The notes beneath the pieces are model-generated. The model was not told where the DNA came from and did not search any database. It saw nothing but the letters and a program-made list of their open reading frames with translations. Shown here piece after piece: positions 4,030 through 14,767 of a stretch of DNA of 20,443 nt. Both the position numbers and the translations under genes were made by a program. This DNA comes from a virus. Location of the stretch: positions 1 through 20,443 of IMG/VR virus record IMGVR_UViG_3300025128_000445; one strand, written 5' to 3'. Position 1 is the stretch's first letter; each line of letters begins with the position of its first letter.

Positions 4030-6390
4030 ATGAAAAATATATTATTTATCATATTAGTTTTTTGCTCAACTTACAGCTATGCTCAAGGTAGTTGGCTAGA
4101 TGTACAAGTTCAGACAGATAATTATGCTGGGGAAACTTCTTGGCAAATCCTTAGTGACTCAAATGTAGTAGCAGTTAGCCCTCCACTACAAAACAGTACC
4201 TTACAAAATCACATGGTATTTTTACCAGCCGGCGATTATGAGTTCGTTATGATGGATTCTTTTGGAGATGGTATATGTTGTTCGTTTGGAGAAGGTTGGT
4301 ATAGAATAAGTAATACATGTGGGTTGGATACAGCAGTGTATGACTTTGATACAGCGTTAGACACTATACCTTTTACTTTAAATCCATGTATACCTCCTAT
4401 TCCTGGATGTACTAATCCTGTGGCAAACAACTACAATCCATGGGCGAACATAGATAATGGTAGCTGTAATGTATTTGAATGTGATTCTACCGAGACTCTT
4501 GTTTCTATGGATCTTACATTAGACACATGGCCTGGAGAGACTGGCTTTACTTTAGTTAACATAGCTAATGGTCAGCCATATGAGCAGGTTATACCTGGAG
4601 AGTTTGACTTTGGGGATCAACTTGCTACATACACTTACGATTTTTGCGTATCACTAGGCTTTGAGTTAATATTAGTAGACGAGTTTGGAGATGGGCTAAA
4701 TGGCTATGCTTCAGGAGGACAAGATGGAGCATGTGTTATTACAGCCTGCGATAGTATTATATGGGAATTAGAAGATCTAGCATTTACAGAGTTTGAGGGA
4801 AACACAATGTACTCTGGGCCTATATTTCCCGATCCTTGTCCACCAGCGCCTGATGTAGTTGGCTGTATGGATGATGATTATGTAGATTATAATCCGGATG
4901 CTGAGCTGCCAGACACATGTGAAACATTACACACTTGGGGTTGTACAGATCCTGAAGCCTTAAATTATGACAGTACAGCAACAATATCAGACCTTGTAGG
5001 TCCTTGCACAATACAAATTATACTAGAAGATGACGCAGCTGATGGATGGGGTAACTCTAAGATAGGTATGGTTCAAGGGGAACAACAATGGCTGTTTACT
5101 GTAGGTCCTGGTGAGTTTAATCAGTCTTGGGATATTGTACTAGATTCTGATGAGGAGGTTGATATATATTACTTCCAAGCTGGTAATCAACAGCAATCTT
5201 CTCAAGAGCTAGCCTTTCAAACATTACACAACTCTGTGTATGTTCTTAACGAGGCAGGTGATACTTTACTGTCTGAGGGTAGTAATCCTTTTATAAATAA
5301 TGGACAGGGGGCTCTTCAACCGTTCACAGGACCTAACTGGACGGTATATCATTTCACTCCTTTTTGTGGAGATGGATGTATACCTTATATATATGGGTGC
5401 ACTGATGAGACTGCTTGTAACTACAACTCTGAAGCTAACACAAACTCTGACTGTAACTATCCTGTTCAGTACTATGATTGTGCAAACAGCTGCATAAATG
5501 ATACAGACGAAGATGGAATCTGCGATGAATTAGAAATTGAAGGATGCCAAGATCCTACAGCATTTAACTATAATTCTTCAGCAACTGATGCTGGCGATTG
5601 TGTGCCGGTAATTTTTGGCTGCACAGATCCTACAATGTTCAACTATAATCCAGAGGCAAATACTTCTTTAGAAAACTGCGTACCATTTGTTTATGGGTGT
5701 ATGGATGATACCATGTATAATTTTAACCCTCTAGCAAATACTGAATATGACCCTTCTACTTGTGAGCCTATTGTTTATGGGTGTACTGACCCTTCTATGC
5801 TCAACTATAACTCATCCGCTAACACAGAAGATTTTAGCTGTATTCCTTACATTTATGGCTGTACTGATAGTAGCGCCTTTAATTATGATCCAACTGCTAA
5901 TACTGACAATGGCTCGTGTATCGAAACAGTTGAAGACTGTATGGACCAAGATGCGTACAATTATAATTCCTTGGCAAATGTTAATGATGCCGATGCTTGT
6001 CTTTACGATGCCGGCTGTATTACAGGTCCTGGAGAACCCTACTGGTTAAATGATGAATGCTATGCTTGGACTATTGATGTAGATCCTTACTGCTGTAGCA
6101 CAGCTTGGGATGAAACTTGTATAACGTTATATCAATACTGTGACGATAACTTTGTAGGTATAGATGATATACATGATGTATATGGTGTATATCCAAATCC
6201 AACAAATGGTATTGTGATTATAAACTCTATTGTTCCTGTATCAGTAGATGTGTATGACTCAAACGGACGTAAAATTATTACAGCACAAACAGATAACAGA
6301 TTAGACTTATCTAGTTTTGCTAATGGAACCTATATAGCAGTAATTTATGCTAACAATAGAATATATAAACAAACAATTATCAAATCATGA
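4030..6390 (+). CDS. Secreted Cys-repeat protein with T9SS type A sorting domain
   Basis: A 786-residue protein with four visible parts. Residues 1-19 form a classic signal peptide (MKNILFIILVFCSTYSYAQ). Beta-sandwich-like segments follow, including DSFGDGICCSFGEGWY near residue 76 and DEFGDGLNGYASGG. From residue 126 to about 656 there are ten Cys-bounded repeats of the GCTDPxxxNYNxxANTxxxSC type, six in a near-continuous run from residue 456, interrupted by a thrombospondin-3-like Ca-binding stretch (NDTDEDGICDELE, about 490). Residues 715-786 are a type A sorting domain: YPNPTNG, VDVYDSNGRKI, LDLSSFANGTYIAVIY, then a basic end. In Bacteroidota such proteins cross the inner membrane by Sec, are exported by the type IX secretion system and are attached to the surface or released. 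In a phage virion operon this implies use of the host T9SS. Target is unknown; adhesion, receptor masking or polymer binding are inferences. Confidence 0.9.
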   Translation: MKNILFIILVFCSTYSYAQGSWLDVQVQTDNYAGETSWQILSDSNVVAVSPPLQNSTLQNHMVFLPAGDYEFVMMDSFGDGICCSFGEGWYRISNTCGLDTAVYDFDTALDTIPFTLNPCIPPIPGCTNPVANNYNPWANIDNGSCNVFECDSTETLVSMDLTLDTWPGETGFTLVNIANGQPYEQVIPGEFDFGDQLATYTYDFCVSLGFELILVDEFGDGLNGYASGGQDGACVITACDSIIWELEDLAFTEFEGNTMYSGPIFPDPCPPAPDVVGCMDDDYVDYNPDAELPDTCETLHTWGCTDPEALNYDSTATISDLVGPCTIQIILEDDAADGWGNSKIGMVQGEQQWLFTVGPGEFNQSWDIVLDSDEEVDIYYFQAGNQQQSSQELAFQTLHNSVYVLNEAGDTLLSEGSNPFINNGQGALQPFTGPNWTVYHFTPFCGDGCIPYIYGCTDETACNYNSEANTNSDCNYPVQYYDCANSCINDTDEDGICDELEIEGCQDPTAFNYNSSATDAGDCVPVIFGCTDPTMFNYNPEANTSLENCVPFVYGCMDDTMYNFNPLANTEYDPSTCEPIVYGCTDPSMLNYNSSANTEDFSCIPYIYGCTDSSAFNYDPTANTDNGSCIETVEDCMDQDAYNYNSLANVNDADACLYDAGCITGPGEPYWLNDECYAWTIDVDPYCCSTAWDETCITLYQYCDDNFVGIDDIHDVYGVYPNPTNGIVIINSIVPVSVDVYDSNGRKIITAQTDNRLDLSSFANGTYIAVIYANNRIYKQTIIKS
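4405..6000 (+). repeat. Ten Cys-bounded protein repeats (GCTDP...NYN..AN...C)
   Basis: Copies of about 20-23 codons begin at residues 126 (GCTNPVANNYNPWAN) through 636 (DCMDQDAYNYNSLAN). Six near-consecutive copies occupy roughly 5395-6000. Each starts with Gly/Asp-Cys, has an Asn/Asp-rich centre with Tyr or Phe, and closes with Cys, a pattern consistent with one disulphide and a Ca-binding loop per unit. The linker between dense copies is mostly V/I-P-F/Y-I/V-Y-G. DNA identity between copies is low, so these are old protein-level repeats, not recent tandem duplications. Confidence 0.85.
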
Positions 6391-6539
6391 AAAAGGTAAA
6401 TTGGATTAATAGCTGGAAGGCTAACAACAAAAAAGAGAAGTATGAACTTCAGTTTAGAATTGGAACAGTAACAATACTTCATGTTAGCTGGGCTAAGAAA
6501 TTTAGATTTATGGTCCTTAATGTAGGCTTTGAACTGTGA
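6387..6539 (+). CDS. Small unknown protein (50 aa)
   Basis: A 50-residue protein starting MKKVNWINSWKANNKKEKYE and ending KFRFMVLNVGFEL. Its ATG overlaps the T9SS cargo stop (ATGA) and its stop overlaps the next start (TGATG), so it is tied by coupling to both envelope genes. It is basic, with alternating strand-like residues (LQFRIGTVTILHVSWAKKF) and no clear membrane helix. No family was recognised. Confidence 0.6.
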   Translation: MKKVNWINSWKANNKKEKYELQFRIGTVTILHVSWAKKFRFMVLNVGFEL

Positions 6540-7636
6540 TGTCACTAGAGAGTAAAAATATTGAAAAAAAAATGAAGCAATTTGAATTTATTCTGTATTG
6601 CTTTATAATGCTTGTAGTATTTATACTTGGCTCAACTTTAGACGCAAGAGGACAAACACTAAAGAAAGCTTTTAAGTTTTCTACGTTTTATGTTGCTGCA
6701 AGTGGTAGTAACTCTCTTGCTGATAATAATATTTATTCTGTAACCAATGGTTTAAATACTTCTATAGAAACGACTCCTTATGATTATGCTTTTACATTAG
6801 GCATTCGTAAGATAGCTAGGTTCGGATATGAGAATCGTGCCAATACATTCTATAATGGTACAGAAAGATCTTATAGTGATGCTGCAACAATTGGTAAAGT
6901 AAAAGGCTTTGAGTATCTACTTGAAGCAGACTGGATCAGGCAACAGGGGCGTACGTTCTTTAATCAAGATTATTTTGTACGTTACGTGTCAAAGAATTGG
7001 ATAGCTAAAGTTGAATACTTAGAAGACAATATTGCAGACATATCATACTTTGAGGGATCTCAAAGAGGAAGAATAAACGTTACAAATAAGTTTAGCATTA
7101 ATGCAGGACTTATACAACGTGTAGCAGAACCTTATGGTTACGATCCTTTAGAAGAGTGGGTGTTATCAAATAATAGCATACACTATACAAGTCTTGCTTT
7201 ACAAGAGGGATATACTATGGATGTAAACACAGGACAGTTTTTTGCTCCTGACGGAACACTAGTAGCGGAGAATACAGAAGTCTGGGAAGCTGTTGTTATA
7301 CCAGAAGTATTATCTGACTATGTAGATCGTAAAAGAAGTGAACTGCCTGATCAATGGCAGCACTCACTAGTAGTAGGCTATGACTACTATCATTTTACAG
7401 ATGATTTCTGGCTACACTCTTGGGGTAATCTACTTCCTTATCACCTTGATCAGGGAGGAGAGTTCTCCTACCATCGCTTTAATAATAATGACCAGTGGTT
7501 AGACTACTCAGGAGGGCTTATATTTGGATATAGGTTTAATAAAAGCTTAGGCGTTTTTCTAGAGGGTAAATACCACAAGTACTGGAGTAAGACCTGGTAC
7601 GACTTTTTAGTAGGAATGAACTATGTAATATTTTAA
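6539..7636 (+). CDS. Putative outer-membrane beta-barrel protein
   Basis: A 365-residue protein from the ATG at 6539, which shares one base with the previous stop. An in-frame ATG at 6572, after an A-rich stretch, gives a cleaner signal peptide (MKQFEFILYCFIMLVVFILG...ARGQ) and may be the true start. After the hydrophobic segment the chain is rich in Tyr, Phe, Trp and short alternating strands (FEYLLEADWIRQ, YFVRYVSKNWIAKVEYL, LVVGYDYYHF, YSGGLIFGYRF, LGVFLEGKYHKY). It ends in YDFLVGMNYVIF; a last strand with terminal Phe is the usual outer-membrane barrel assembly signal. It lies directly after the T9SS cargo gene and before the lysis genes. Surface exclusion, anchoring the T9SS protein or outer-membrane disruption at lysis are possible roles; none is proven. 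Confidence 0.75.
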   Translation: MSLESKNIEKKMKQFEFILYCFIMLVVFILGSTLDARGQTLKKAFKFSTFYVAASGSNSLADNNIYSVTNGLNTSIETTPYDYAFTLGIRKIARFGYENRANTFYNGTERSYSDAATIGKVKGFEYLLEADWIRQQGRTFFNQDYFVRYVSKNWIAKVEYLEDNIADISYFEGSQRGRINVTNKFSINAGLIQRVAEPYGYDPLEEWVLSNNSIHYTSLALQEGYTMDVNTGQFFAPDGTLVAENTEVWEAVVIPEVLSDYVDRKRSELPDQWQHSLVVGYDYYHFTDDFWLHSWGNLLPYHLDQGGEFSYHRFNNNDQWLDYSGGLIFGYRFNKSLGVFLEGKYHKYWSKTWYDFLVGMNYVIF

Positions 7637-7639
7637 GAA

Positions 7640-7924
7640 ATGGCAAAACAAATAGGTGAGGATACTAAAGTAACATTAGACCTCAAAACAATTGGAATGG
7701 GTGCGGCTGGTTTAGCTGCTTTAATAGGAATGTACTTTGCGTTACAAGCTGATATAGCTTTAGCTAAAGAACTACCTGAACCACTACCTCCAGAAATTAC
7801 ACGTATGGAGTTTGACATGAAAGACCAATTAGTTCGTCAAACTATCATGACTACGCAAGAAGATGTGAAAGAAGTTAAAGAAGACCTTGACCGCATCGAA
7901 GCAAAAATTGATAAACTAAAATAA
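7640..7924 (+). CDS. Single-helix membrane protein with coiled coil (holin-like candidate)
   Basis: A 94-residue protein with one hydrophobic helix at about 17-36 (TIGMGAAGLAALIGMYFALQ), a Pro-rich linker (KELPEPLPPEITR) and an acidic/basic heptad-like coiled coil from about 58 to 94 (ending DRIEAKIDKLK). The N-terminus is short and polar, and no cleavable signal is evident. Similar proteins occur beside M15 endolysin genes in marine phages (from memory), where they are sometimes called holins. With only one helix it would be a class III-type holin, or an inner-membrane spanin/chaperone-like subunit. Position in the probable lysis cassette is the main support. Confidence 0.65.
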   Translation: MAKQIGEDTKVTLDLKTIGMGAAGLAALIGMYFALQADIALAKELPEPLPPEITRMEFDMKDQLVRQTIMTTQEDVKEVKEDLDRIEAKIDKLK

Positions 7925-7932
7925 CATGAAAG

Positions 7933-8298
7933 ATGAAAACTGCTCTACTAGCTGTATTATCCTTGCTCTCTTACTCGGTAATACATGTTTCTCTACTGGA
8001 AACTGTCCCAAAAATTAGTACCGACGGTATATGTGTTGCTGAGTTTAACGCTTCGTTTAATTCTCAAAACAGTGTACCTTGGATAGAAAAACTAAATGAC
8101 TGTACAACAACTCGTGTAGATATTGCTGCTTCCCCAAATTTACAGACAGAGCATAAGATTGTTGTAGTTCCTACAATTGTAGTATTTAATGATGGAAAGG
8201 AGGTAGAAAGATTTCAAGCTAATATTATGATGAGTATGGAGGCTAGCAAATCGGATGTTCAAGGAGCTATTGATGATATCATCATGAGTGATTTTTAA
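7933..8298 (+). CDS. Secreted or membrane-anchored thioredoxin-fold protein lacking CxxC
   Basis: A 121-residue protein with a hydrophobic N-terminal signal or anchor (MKTALLAVLSLLSYSVIHVS). A thioredoxin-like order follows: strand VAEFNASF (35-42), helix, strand TRVDIAA, then VVVPTIVVFNDGKEVERFQ (77-95) with the hallmark cis-proline at Pro80 and the following beta hairpin, and a C-terminal helix. Aligning VAEFNASFNSQN with the thioredoxin VDFWAEWCGPC motif places Asn43-Ser44-Gln45-Asn46 where Cys-Gly-Pro-Cys should be. Redox activity is therefore unlikely. A periplasmic binding or scaffolding role between holin and endolysin genes is inferred. From memory, similar CxxC-less proteins exist in other marine phages. 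Confidence 0.75.
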   Translation: MKTALLAVLSLLSYSVIHVSLLETVPKISTDGICVAEFNASFNSQNSVPWIEKLNDCTTTRVDIAASPNLQTEHKIVVVPTIVVFNDGKEVERFQANIMMSMEASKSDVQGAIDDIIMSDF

Positions 8299-8308
8299 AT
8301 AGAATATA

Positions 8309-8773
8309 ATGGCTGATAAAATAAGCAAACATATAAGTTATAAAGAAGCTACTCGTAGTAACACAGCTTTACGTAGAGGTATAGATAATATACCAGACGT
8401 AGAAGAGCTCGAAAACATGAAGCTTATTGCTGAAAAAGTATTTGAGCCTTTACGTAAGTTTGTTAAAGGTCCGATTAAGATAAACAGCTTTTATAGATCA
8501 CCTGAGCTAAATATAGCTATAGGTGGCAGTAAAAAATCACAGCATTGTCATGGCCAAGCTATGGATCTCGATGATACATATGGTCATAGAACAAACGCAT
8601 CTATGTTTACATATATTAAGAATCACTTAGACTTTGATCAGTTGATCTGGGAGTTTGGTGATGATAAAAACCCAGCATGGATACATGTCAGTTATGTCTC
8701 AGAAGACAAGAACCGACGCAGATGTTTAAAAGCCGTAAAGAAAAGCGGTAAAACTACTTACGAATTAATTTAA
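8309..8773 (+). CDS. Endolysin, M15-family zinc peptidase
   Basis: A 154-residue protein with the M15 (VanY/D-Ala-D-Ala carboxypeptidase-like) zinc site. The motif SQHCHGQAMD at 77-86 supplies His79 and Asp86, and WIHVSY at 124-129 supplies His126. The conserved INSFYRSPELN motif (58-68) precedes it. It hydrolyses a peptide bond in peptidoglycan stem peptides at the end of infection. It has no signal peptide, so it needs a holin-type route, consistent with the membrane protein two genes upstream. Length is typical for a compact phage M15 endolysin. A virion-associated wall-degrading role is less likely but not excluded, since the gene sits among structural genes. Confidence 0.92.
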   Translation: MADKISKHISYKEATRSNTALRRGIDNIPDVEELENMKLIAEKVFEPLRKFVKGPIKINSFYRSPELNIAIGGSKKSQHCHGQAMDLDDTYGHRTNASMFTYIKNHLDFDQLIWEFGDDKNPAWIHVSYVSEDKNRRRCLKAVKKSGKTTYELI

Positions 8774-9652: not shown

Positions 9653-10351
9653 ATGATAGTCGTACCAGCAGGATTTAATGGGGCTATCAGTCCCAAGTTA
9701 GACGCATGTGTATCTCCCGATTGTAGTAGTATTACTCTATCGGACGTTACACTATTGTCTAGTGTAGCTAATCCATTTGGTTGGACAACAGATACAGCAG
9801 AGTCTCCTCGTCCTAGAATATTAACAGCATTCAAGGAGATCAGAGTTATTGTAACAAACAGCTCTGGTAACGAAGTAGTAAATGTTATTGTTTATGCTCC
9901 ACCTAGTGCAGATTCAGCAGGTATTAATTTTTTCCCATCAATAGATGACTTCAATGATAATATGCCATTATCCACAGTTACTTGGGGTCAAGATGATGGA
10001 CTGTACGGGTTTACGTACCAGTTTACGTACTTAGATTCAGGAGGTAGTTTTGGAGATTCTGATAACGAATTAGGACTTCAGGAGAACATTGTAAAACAAG
10101 AGTTCAATAAACTAGTTACTTGTAAGTCTCAAAATGCTGTTAAAGACCTGTGGTTAAAATATATAGATAATTGTTGCGATGCTAATAGAGATGATGCTCT
10201 AGAAGCCGAAGCTTTACTATACGCTGTAGAAGCAGCCGGCGCCTGTGCTGATGAGTTCAAGGCCCAAAAAATCAAGGATGCCCTAGATAAGATTATTGCA
10301 CTATCTACTAATTCTTGTACTATTTGTAAAACAACTAAATGTAATTGCTAA
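9653..10351 (+). CDS. Tail-region protein with C-terminal Cys cluster
   Basis: A 232-residue protein with two parts. The N-terminal 120 residues are beta-rich (EIRVIVTNSSGNEVVNVIVY, then GINFFPSIDDF and GLYGFTYQFTYLDSGG). The rest is helical, with a Cys-flanked helical pair (Cys157, Cys174, Cys175) and the tail CTICKTTKCNC at 222-232. The Cys arrangement could bind zinc or form disulphides after release. The helical part resembles a segment of the 383-residue protein encoded at 12331-13482. Its stop shares a base with the next start (TAATG). No named family was recognised. Confidence 0.62.
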   Translation: MIVVPAGFNGAISPKLDACVSPDCSSITLSDVTLLSSVANPFGWTTDTAESPRPRILTAFKEIRVIVTNSSGNEVVNVIVYAPPSADSAGINFFPSIDDFNDNMPLSTVTWGQDDGLYGFTYQFTYLDSGGSFGDSDNELGLQENIVKQEFNKLVTCKSQNAVKDLWLKYIDNCCDANRDDALEAEALLYAVEAAGACADEFKAQKIKDALDKIIALSTNSCTICKTTKCNC

Positions 10352-11400
10352 TGAGCTGCGGATGTAACAACAAAAGCGGAGTCGTATCTATAGCCGGTGG
10401 AGGTTCTAACGGCGGGGGTGGATCTTCTGGAGGTAATGGAGGTAACGGTGGATCAGGTGGATCTGGCGGAGGAGGAAACGGTGGAAACGGAGGTTCTAAC
10501 CCTAACTGTGACTCTATCCTTAATATAGAAACTCAAACTCTTTCTTCAGAAACAATCGTAACGATTACTTTCTGTAGTGGAGCTATTCAACAATTTAGTA
10601 TTCCTCACGGAGTAGATGGAAATGATGGAGCTAATGGTACAGATGGTACTTCAGGAGATACAGGTATAGCAGTAGAAGATGTAAGTGTTACCCAGGTTGG
10701 TAATGAAATTACACTAGTTATCACACTTGATGATGGTACTATCTTTGAGAATACGTTTACAATAGCTACTGCTACAGGAGCTCACATTATTGAGGCTAAG
10801 ACACAAGGTGGAGCTGTTGATCTAACAGATGCTACAGGAAATGGATTTGAACAAATTAATCTTGCTACTGTAGGAGGAGAGTTTGAAGTTATCGGAGGGA
10901 CAGTTCCTGGTAATACAATAACAATTGCTGGGGATACATTACACTTTGACGCTGTGTTCCAGGTAAGAACTGATGGAACTGCACTTCATAATCCGTTTAA
11001 AGAATTATATCTTACAGTAGGTGCAGTAGGATCAATTACTGAGAAATGTACAAATCTTTCAGGCCAGCCTGCTACAATTACAGTTCCAACAGATGGACAT
11101 ATTCAAGTTAGTGTAGAGTTTACAAAGACAAATAGTACTAGAAATGAATTGTTCTTTAAAGGTACAATGACTGTAGGTGATAAAGGGCTGTCTGCTGTAG
11201 GAAGTCATAGCATTACCGATCTCAATCCTCCTGTTGCTCCGAAAACATTTGCATTCTATGGAGGAACAGGTGAATCCGGTGATCTTGATTTTACACAAGA
11301 ACTACAGATTCAACTGAGAGCATTTCCAGGAGGTTCGGGGTCAGACACCATGTTTGTTAATCCAGCCTATATGACTATTACTAAAATACCTAAAATATGA
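10351..11400 (+). CDS. Gly-rich / collagen-like fibre protein with Cys N-terminus
   Basis: A 349-residue protein; the ATG at 10351 overlaps the upstream stop and is preferred to an in-frame TTG at 10345. It begins MSCGCNNKSG, then has about 34 residues that are almost only Gly, Ser and Asn (16-49), a short beta region, a collagen-like Gly-X-Y stretch at 87-105, and a beta-rich C-terminal half (VEDVSVTQVGNEITLVITLDDG, then domains with FAFYGGTGESGD). This organisation suits a trimeric tail or appendage fibre with a flexible stalk. Two Cys at the extreme N-terminus face the Cys-rich C-terminus of the previous gene product, so the two may interact through metal or disulphides. Role is inferred. 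Confidence 0.68.
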   Translation: MSCGCNNKSGVVSIAGGGSNGGGGSSGGNGGNGGSGGSGGGGNGGNGGSNPNCDSILNIETQTLSSETIVTITFCSGAIQQFSIPHGVDGNDGANGTDGTSGDTGIAVEDVSVTQVGNEITLVITLDDGTIFENTFTIATATGAHIIEAKTQGGAVDLTDATGNGFEQINLATVGGEFEVIGGTVPGNTITIAGDTLHFDAVFQVRTDGTALHNPFKELYLTVGAVGSITEKCTNLSGQPATITVPTDGHIQVSVEFTKTNSTRNELFFKGTMTVGDKGLSAVGSHSITDLNPPVAPKTFAFYGGTGESGDLDFTQELQIQLRAFPGGSGSDTMFVNPAYMTITKIPKI

Positions 11401-13482: not shown

Positions 13483-14243
13483 AGAAAATGATAGGACAGC
13501 TAGAGGAGGCTATTAATATAGACTCAGATGATTCTGTGTTCAGTGAAAGACTTTTTACAGATCTTATTAACCAAGCAAGAGCTGTCTTTATTAGACAAGA
13601 CTTAAATAAGAATAGGACTGCAGATCCTACAATCATACAAGAACTACCTTGTGTAGAAATGGAGATCACTACTGCCGCTTTGTGTGGATGTTTAGATATA
13701 CCTGGAAACTGTAAACTTCTAAGGTCAAAGAAGAAAATTCCAGATACTATCGAACTCCATCACAATGACGGTATCTTATCTGTAAGACCTGTACAGATTA
13801 TACAGGCACCCTTTAGTTATGTAGACTATAAAAGAATACCGCATATCCATTATTCTAGATTTGCAAAGAATGCTATATATGCATTTTTACTAGATGACTA
13901 TATGTACTTGTACTCACCTGGTCAGGAGCACTATGCTTTGATAGAGCAGATACACATTAGAGGTATCTTTGAAGATCCTACTGAGGCAGGTAACTTTGTT
14001 AATACTTGTGGAGACCCTTGCTTTACTAAAGAAAGTAATTATCCTGTAGCTACATGGATGTTTGAGGCAGCTATGAAGCCTCATATTATGGGACAGATGA
14101 ACATGAAGCTTGTATCTGTAGACGATAAGAATAACAACTCAGACGATGATACAGTTCCTAGAAACGTACCAAGACAACGTGCTCCAGTAGCAGCAGCTAC
14201 AGGTCAACCTGCTCCTAGAAGACAACAACCAGCTAGACGATGA
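13470..14243 (+). CDS. Neck/ring structural protein of crAss-like type
   Basis: A 257-residue protein. It starts MLTLEKMIGQLEEAINIDSD, then has a helix with FSERLFTDLINQARAVFIRQ, and a signature CVEMEITTAALCGCLDIPGN followed by CKLLRSKKKIP. This Cys-containing ME...C.C...C..L.S...IP arrangement is what I recall for a conserved crAss-like structural protein encoded just before the IHF-like gene. The middle (FAKNAIYAFLLDDYMYLYSP) is beta-rich and the last 40 residues are a basic, Pro/Arg/Gln-rich tail (PRQRAPVAAATGQPAPRRQQ), probably disordered. It likely contributes a ring of the connector between portal and tail. It overlaps the genes on both sides (13 bases upstream, 4 bases downstream). Confidence 0.75.
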   Translation: MLTLEKMIGQLEEAINIDSDDSVFSERLFTDLINQARAVFIRQDLNKNRTADPTIIQELPCVEMEITTAALCGCLDIPGNCKLLRSKKKIPDTIELHHNDGILSVRPVQIIQAPFSYVDYKRIPHIHYSRFAKNAIYAFLLDDYMYLYSPGQEHYALIEQIHIRGIFEDPTEAGNFVNTCGDPCFTKESNYPVATWMFEAAMKPHIMGQMNMKLVSVDDKNNNSDDDTVPRNVPRQRAPVAAATGQPAPRRQQPARR

Positions 14244-14767
14244 ACAGAAAGAAAGGGGCACAGGGAAAGAATAATGCTAATGTAAGGTCTCAAGACTTTT
14301 ACAGGTTCTACTATGATCACGAGCGAAAGCCGATTCCTTACAGTAAGCTAAAGAATTTGTATAAGGATTTGATGTCAGGAGTTATGCAAATTATGCTAGA
14401 TGGAGATGAAGCGGTCATCCCTAACCTAGGCTCTTTCTCTATTCGTTCTTACAAGCCAAAGAAGTTTGATAAGAACGGCAACTTTCTTAAACCAGCTATT
14501 GACTTTGGGAGATCTTGGGAGTACTGGAGGAAACTTTATCCAGATAAAACAGACCAAGAGATTACTAAAGTAAAGAGTAAACCACTTCTTAGATATGAGA
14601 ACAGGCACTCTAAAGGCTTAAAGTACATGTTCTACTGGGATCATAGTACTTTAGCTATACGCGGAAAACAGGTCTACAATTTTAAACCTGCAACTCAATA
14701 CAACAGAAAACTTAGTAAGATTGTTAAAAGCGATACTGAGGTTTCATTTGAATCTATAACCCTATGA
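14240..14767 (+). CDS. IHF/HU-like structural protein of crAss-like phages
   Basis: A 175-residue basic protein. Residues 31-73 follow the HU/IHF layout: helices (YSKLKNLYKDLMSGVMQIML), then DGDEAVIPNLGSFSIRSYKP, equivalent to the G-x-G-x-F beta turn of HU. The later segment with KYMFYWDHSTLAIRGKQVYN and then FKPATQYNRKL is the pattern I recall from proteins annotated as 'IHF subunit' in crAss-like genomes. These sit in the tail/neck region of the operon and are virion components with the IHF fold, so nucleoid function is not implied. The start overlaps the previous gene by ATGA, as does its stop with the next. Confidence 0.85.
   Translation: MNRKKGAQGKNNANVRSQDFYRFYYDHERKPIPYSKLKNLYKDLMSGVMQIMLDGDEAVIPNLGSFSIRSYKPKKFDKNGNFLKPAIDFGRSWEYWRKLYPDKTDQEITKVKSKPLLRYENRHSKGLKYMFYWDHSTLAIRGKQVYNFKPATQYNRKLSKIVKSDTEVSFESITL

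Follow-up and report, generated by a model that had tools for sequence, protein, structure and literature searches.

A phage-restricted family of predicted outer-membrane beta-barrels and its linked partner genes in crAss-like and T4-like phages

The barrel gene and its predicted product

The window, by which we mean the whole stretch of DNA that was analysed, is a virus record of 20,443 bases. It contains the gene of a putative outer-membrane barrel, three neighbours referred to as T9, TMCC and TRX, and an endolysin gene directly after TRX (Table 1).

Table 1. Genes and features in the part of the window around the barrel gene
Feature	Position	Strand	Remarks
T9	4030..6390	+	signal peptide, beta modules, GCTD Cys-rich repeats, type IX sorting domain TIGR04183 (residues 720-785)
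ORF overlapping T9 end and barrel gene start	6387..6539	+	50 aa
Outer-membrane beta-barrel protein (predicted)	6539..7636	+	365 aa from ATG 6539; 354 aa from ATG 6572
Barrel signal segment, up to ...DARG	6539..6652	+	putative cleavage site
Barrel residues 81-111 (from ATG 6572), hairpin, strands 2/3	6812..6904	+	highly conserved; low model confidence
Barrel residues 186-260, insert of 75 residues, strands 7/8	7127..7351	+	conserved; from model and alignment
Last barrel strand, ...FLVGMNYVIF	7589..7633	+	from sequence, alignment and model
TMCC	7640..7924	+	94 aa; one TM segment then coiled coil; N-in/C-out by charge
TRX	7933..8298	+	exported thioredoxin-fold protein, no CxxC
M15 peptidase endolysin	8309..8773	+	PHROG 894

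The open reading frame of the barrel is real, and runs from an ATG at 6539 to a TAA at 7634-7636. Two further in-frame starts exist, a GTG at 6536 upstream and an internal ATG at 6572; the close relatives L002 and L007 start at a place like 6539, in agreement with the ATG at that position. The N-terminus consists of a hydrophobic segment followed by DARGQ. The N-termini of the relatives vary: they are short signal peptides with an AQ or GQ end, and some are lipobox-like (e.g., LLASC). The columns of the mature part have a mean identity of 64% in 39 sequences, and signal segments that are unlike each other in front of such a conserved part are the pattern expected of an exported protein. A simple rule, rather than a trained predictor, finds a hydrophobic N-terminal segment in 111 of the 111 distinct members that start with M. 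Of the first 160 loci, 30 have a gene family of about 61 residues, to be compared with the 50-aa ORF of Table 1, which mostly lies just ahead of the barrel.

The window barrel ends in YDFLVGMNYVIF. An earlier note on this DNA had described the signal segment and this ending, and both are indeed present in the ORF. It had also presented the terminal Phe as characteristic of the protein, which does not extend to the family: the last residue among 79 relatives is F in 44, I in 16, L in 13, R in 4, Y in 1 and T in 1 (the single T results from a frame broken early in L001). A C-terminal aromatic residue (F or Y), which is the BAM signal, is found in 45 of these 79 proteins, the others ending in I, L, R or T, and what is conserved at the C-terminus is GxNY[VI]I rather than the terminal Phe.

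AlphaFold2 models the barrel with 12 strands from 39 sequences (pLDDT 73.8, pTM 0.67). The alignment (A1) leaves out L026, which is incomplete, L001, and any member more than 90% identical to a kept one; it is shallow (Neff about 2), so the details of the topology are uncertain. The top ten matches among solved structures are all outer-membrane barrels. The best is Tsx (Z 13.7, rmsd 3.7, 199 aligned), and further fold matches are EstA (Z 12.2), KdgM and NanC (11.7), NalP (11.5) and OMPLA (10.7). The matches listed by Foldseek and VIA are outer-membrane barrels with few exceptions; an exception among the VIA matches listed is BFA1 (Z 9.2), which is not a transmembrane barrel. The hydropathy alternation of the 12 predicted strands, on the Wimley-White octanol scale, is higher than in shuffled sequence (reached by 31 of 5000 shuffles); on the Kyte-Doolittle scale, which scores Tyr and Trp as polar, the alternation is not above shuffles (914 of 5000). 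The earlier note had proposed an outer-membrane barrel and named structure prediction as the check: its proposal is borne out by the model and the structure matches, and a soluble beta-propeller or a fibre is rejected. The product of the window gene is thus, as modelled, very probably an outer-membrane barrel, and belongs to a phage-restricted family.

Two parts of the model stand out. Residues 83-109 have a pLDDT below 50, yet they are highly conserved; the hairpin to which they belong would be periplasmic if both termini of the barrel are periplasmic. The 75-residue insert between strands 7 and 8 would be either extracellular or a plug. This conserved insert and the conserved charged residues on lumen-like faces of the model argue against an open porin, a function which is therefore not supported, and the porin analogy of the earlier note is not retained. 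The Lc porin and Lom are outer-membrane proteins of lambdoid phages, encoded by single genes of lambdoid prophages. Compared by description, they resemble the present protein as phage-encoded outer-membrane barrels.

Searches of Pfam, PHROG, NCBIfam and PDB sequences returned no clear relative of the barrel, only sub-threshold or scattered matches, among them a weak match of 3 of 39 members to the NCBIfam outer-membrane family TDE1717 (E 0.0036). Similarly, no clear relative was found among 50,697 cultured-phage records. A single-sequence scan of IMG/VR gave 175 relatives among 177 candidate stretches, and a profile scan gave at least 569 barrel-encoding stretches among the 599 listed. Just three matches, all in MAGs, were obtained in the GTDB collection (84,980 genomes). 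One of them lies on a contig that equals an IMG/VR contig in length and encodes a barrel which is 100% identical to that of this contig (L084/L235), and another sits in a MAG that carries an archaeal label. The three matches are probably binned phage contigs, and the idea of a bacterial gene was rejected. Two different copies of the barrel (L011 and L012) lie near opposite ends of one 59.7-kb record, IMGVR_UViG_3300030330_003594. The record IMGVR_UViG_3300030098_004828 (L305, L307), of 245,646 bases, has two barrels and two portals and perhaps consists of two related genomes joined together.

A cassette of four genes

The loci used for counting were the best 80 of each scan. Clustering of the neighbours in the first 160 loci recovers the barrel in 159, T9 in 152, TMCC and TRX in 137 each, and no other family in more than 53. 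The loci were also dereplicated at about 95%, and barrels with less than 6 kb to either end of their locus were set aside, which kept 92 of 160 dereplicated loci; in 90 of these 92, T9, TMCC and TRX are within 6 kb of the barrel and on the same strand. The genes occur in the orders T9-barrel-TMCC-TRX (63 loci), barrel-TMCC-TRX-T9 (17) and TMCC-TRX-T9-barrel (10), which indicates that the linkage survives rearrangement. When TMCC alone is used as the query, 79 of the best 80 loci contain the barrel, the sole miss being a 4.9-kb contig; many of these contigs had also come up in the searches with the barrel. It is highly probable that the four genes act as a functional unit. Fold, export signals and linkage are computational results, and we infer complex formation, timing and function.

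The window T9 has a signal peptide and scores 40.8 bits against TIGR04183 (cut-off 23), and the type A sorting domain is found in 38 of 39 T9 members (TIGR04183, E ≤ 0.001). The model of this domain matches the sorting domains of NucA, FspA and RemA bound in the type IX translocon. The remainder of T9, modelled with its domains together, gave no convincing fold match. In cultured phages, only short parts of T9 are matched, in five records.

TMCC crosses the membrane with a single TM segment, and the charges place its N-terminus inside in 83 of 89 distinct members. Its coiled coil was called by eye from heptad spacing, and its periplasmic part is only about 60 residues long. TMCC has no match among cultured phages. 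TRX has a hydrophobic N-terminus and a VVVPT turn, kept in 102 of 104 distinct members, and its match to the thioredoxin family is weak (E 4.9e-5, below the cut-off). The CxxC active site is absent from all 104 members, so that TRX is hardly a redox enzyme.

The available part of the report on 'Cryophage' describes as unique a phage that encodes T9SS cargo with type A sorting domains, namely an endoglucanase, a GH39 protein and PA14 proteins (PMC7468147). The cassette resembles that phage in that phage-encoded proteins carry type A sorting domains. However, as far as that part goes, the 'Cryophage' cargos are among the variable genes, whereas T9 is one conserved repeat protein, part of a fixed cassette and present in many phages (PMC7468147).

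Carrier phages and a lineage without T9

The last ORF of the window matches stabilization proteins of crAss phages and a structural protein of Cellulophaga phage phi14:2, and other ORFs match virion PHROGs. These homologies support the assignment of the window to a crAss-like phage, which is the setting that the earlier note had proposed. That note had regarded the barrel as unusual for the virion regions of such phages; the picture is incomplete, as the barrel is no peculiarity of a single phage and belongs to a four-gene cassette that many marine phages of the crAss-like and T4-like kinds carry. Elsewhere in the window, a protein encoded at 14240-14767 (+; PHROG 12177) has an IPNLGSFSIR motif, which resembles HU/IHF, as in crAss-like phages, and a protein encoded at 10345-11400 (+) has a Gly/Ser-rich stretch near its start.

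The crAss portal is present in 30 of the 43 records that reach about 57 kb, the T4 gp23 major capsid protein in 10, both in none and neither in 3. In-frame TAG or TAA codons, which may stem from recoding, interruption or an assembly error, are seen inside the portal match of G040 and the gp23 matches of G034 and G027. A first tree of the barrels included the very long row of L226. When L226 is left out, none of 200 bootstrap trees unites the barrels of the T4-like phages in a single clade and two changes are needed, the strongly supported branches not forcing more than one change between phage types. Transfer of the cassette between phages whose virions are unrelated is thus probable, and speaks against a role in the virion.

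L226 and eight other loci (L321-L328; L329 is the contig of L226 again) have no T9, and their divergent barrel shares about 38% identity with the other barrels. They form one lineage, rather than several independent events. The type A sorting domain was not detected in seven of the seven T9-less records searched, only two of which exceed 60 kb, and is present in 10 of 10 ordinary cassette records. Where they are present in the contig, TMCC and TRX of this lineage are 50-84% alike. Of the conserved residues, its barrels retain every one in strand 9, and the likeness amounts to 52% in the hairpin 81-111 and to 27% in the large insert. The absence of T9 therefore goes with a changed barrel, the change being largest in the presumed outer insert. 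Barrel, TMCC and TRX, which are kept without T9, look like the core of the cassette, and T9 is dispensable. In L226, an ORF at 10046-10471 (+) resembles, by eye, a small heat-shock protein (HSP20).

Possible roles of the cassette

In the crAss-like records, a holin (PHROG 3427), an M15 endolysin or an amidase is encoded within 3 kb in 26 of 30, and in L226 a holin-family ORF overlaps the start of the barrel. None of the 10 T4-like records has an annotated lysis gene within 3 kb; in 9 of them TM73, a small two-TM protein, is encoded at a distance of 0-483 bases, and its comparison with the holin family gives an hhalign probability of 7% (E 0.0047). Lysis genes with an annotation occur within 3 kb at 47 of the 92 dereplicated loci, and the number rises to 63 when TM73 is counted. 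At the same range, 45 of 306 loci also have the portal gene. The order of phage genes often places lysis genes close to late genes anyway, which weakens the argument from this context.

Two-component spanins, such as Rz/Rz1 of lambda, resemble the cassette in that they combine a type II inner-membrane coiled-coil protein with an outer-membrane partner, near holin and endolysin. TMCC has the features of a type II inner-membrane protein with a periplasmic coiled coil. However, the outer-membrane partner in the cassette is a barrel and not a small lipoprotein, the periplasmic part of TMCC is short, and the cassette adds TRX and a T9SS cargo. By eye, the window barrel lacks the lipobox of an o-spanin; LLASC-like motifs occur in a few of its relatives. 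Given this missing lipobox and a TMCC that does not reach far into the periplasm, the cassette is not assigned to the spanins.

The available parts of Kongari et al. 2018 (PMC6139136) list B124-14 and P2559S/P2559Y as Bacteroidota phages without spanins, and remark that an OMP could serve as o-spanin. According to the available part of another survey, Bacteroidetes phages use unimolecular spanins only (PMC12596118). The nearby lysis genes, the existence of spanin-less Bacteroidota phages and the remark on OMPs lead us to favour a role in lysis, even if the lack of annotated lysis genes near the cassette of T4-like phages, their presence at just half of the dereplicated loci, and a TMCC that is short for spanning the periplasm count against it. 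We tentatively regard the four genes as an envelope-spanning late cassette, whose likeliest role would be in that step of lysis which concerns the outer membrane. According to the signals and the fold, TMCC would reside in the inner membrane, TRX in the periplasm and the barrel in the outer membrane, while T9 would be taken to the cell surface by the type IX secretion system of the host. The cassette would be expressed late; holin and endolysin would first open the inner membrane and the wall, and TMCC and TRX would then engage the periplasmic side of the barrel, which would stand in for the o-spanin, and thereby destabilise the outer membrane. T9 would be an accessory that acts on the surface. 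As a complete explanation, which joins the unit, its compartments, late expression, the lysis step and the accessory T9, this is the best available, and it falls somewhat short of being probable.

A cargo of the type IX system must leave the cell before lysis, which also fits a role at the surface. Surface remodelling or superinfection exclusion, in which the displayed barrel and T9 would mask or inactivate receptors, or stop released virions from re-binding debris, with TMCC and TRX as an anchor or an aid to assembly, ranks next after the lysis role and is rather unlikely. It would account for the type IX sorting domain of nearly all T9 members, for the presence of the cassette in unrelated phage types, and for the fact that the lineage without T9 has the most divergent barrel found, above all in its largest insert, and has kept TMCC and TRX. 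However, it gives no apparent need for a coiled coil in the inner membrane and a TRX in the periplasm, and in crAss-like phages the cassette adjoins holin and endolysin genes.

The adjacency of T9 and the barrel in most loci, and the divergence of the barrel where T9 is missing, could also mean that the barrel is a dedicated partner which holds or anchors T9 at the surface like barrels of the SprF or PorV type. SprF is encoded next to T9SS cargo, and PorP/SprF proteins (PF11751) are, like the barrel, outer-membrane proteins of Bacteroidota of about 300-350 residues. Yet the barrel has no sequence-profile similarity to them (the Pfam scan of 39 members gave no match and the hhalign probability is 3.6), and its membership in PF11751 was rejected. 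Moreover, barrel, TMCC and TRX persist without T9, and the hosts have their own PorV, which serves cargos with a type A sorting domain such as that of T9. This possibility is therefore quite improbable.

The position of the barrel gene between structural genes in the window would suit a component of the virion or of adsorption. This is most improbable, as barrel, T9 and TRX carry signal peptides and the same cassette serves phages whose virions are unrelated. Equally remote is a metabolic porin for nutrient uptake during infection. The best folds do include the channels Tsx, NanC and KdgM, but a common fold shows no function: the 12-strand barrels Tsx, NalP, OMPLA, NanC and KdgM belong to the same fold class as the window barrel, have no detectable sequence relation to it and have mutually unrelated functions. 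The charges on the lumen-like faces, the conserved insert and the constant neighbours, which are not those of a transport system, also speak against uptake.

The fold of the barrel is itself ordinary, and the family and the cassette are absent from all the libraries searched. No paper was recognised as describing the cassette in the literature searched, a collection that lacks most subscription papers and preprints. Of the known kinds considered, namely spanin, PorP/SprF, porin and thioredoxin, each either lacks a defining feature that was tested or could not be demonstrated. A broader reading of the favoured lysis role is doubtful: a new system of outer-membrane disruption in Bacteroidota phages, in which the barrel replaces the o-spanin and works with TMCC and TRX, tuned by T9 displayed through the T9SS, and which is exchanged between crAss-like and T4-like phages. 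If a spanin-like mechanism were proved, the cassette would become a far variant of the spanins.

The use of host type IX secretion by a phage, reported once and, in the available part of that report, as unique (PMC7468147), is widespread in the viruses that carry the cassette. A fixed cassette with one predicted product per envelope compartment, in two unrelated phage groups, provides four named genes to test. In numerous uncultured marine viruses whose hosts are bacteria of the Bacteroidota type, the barrel cassette may help to alter or break open the outer layer of the host.
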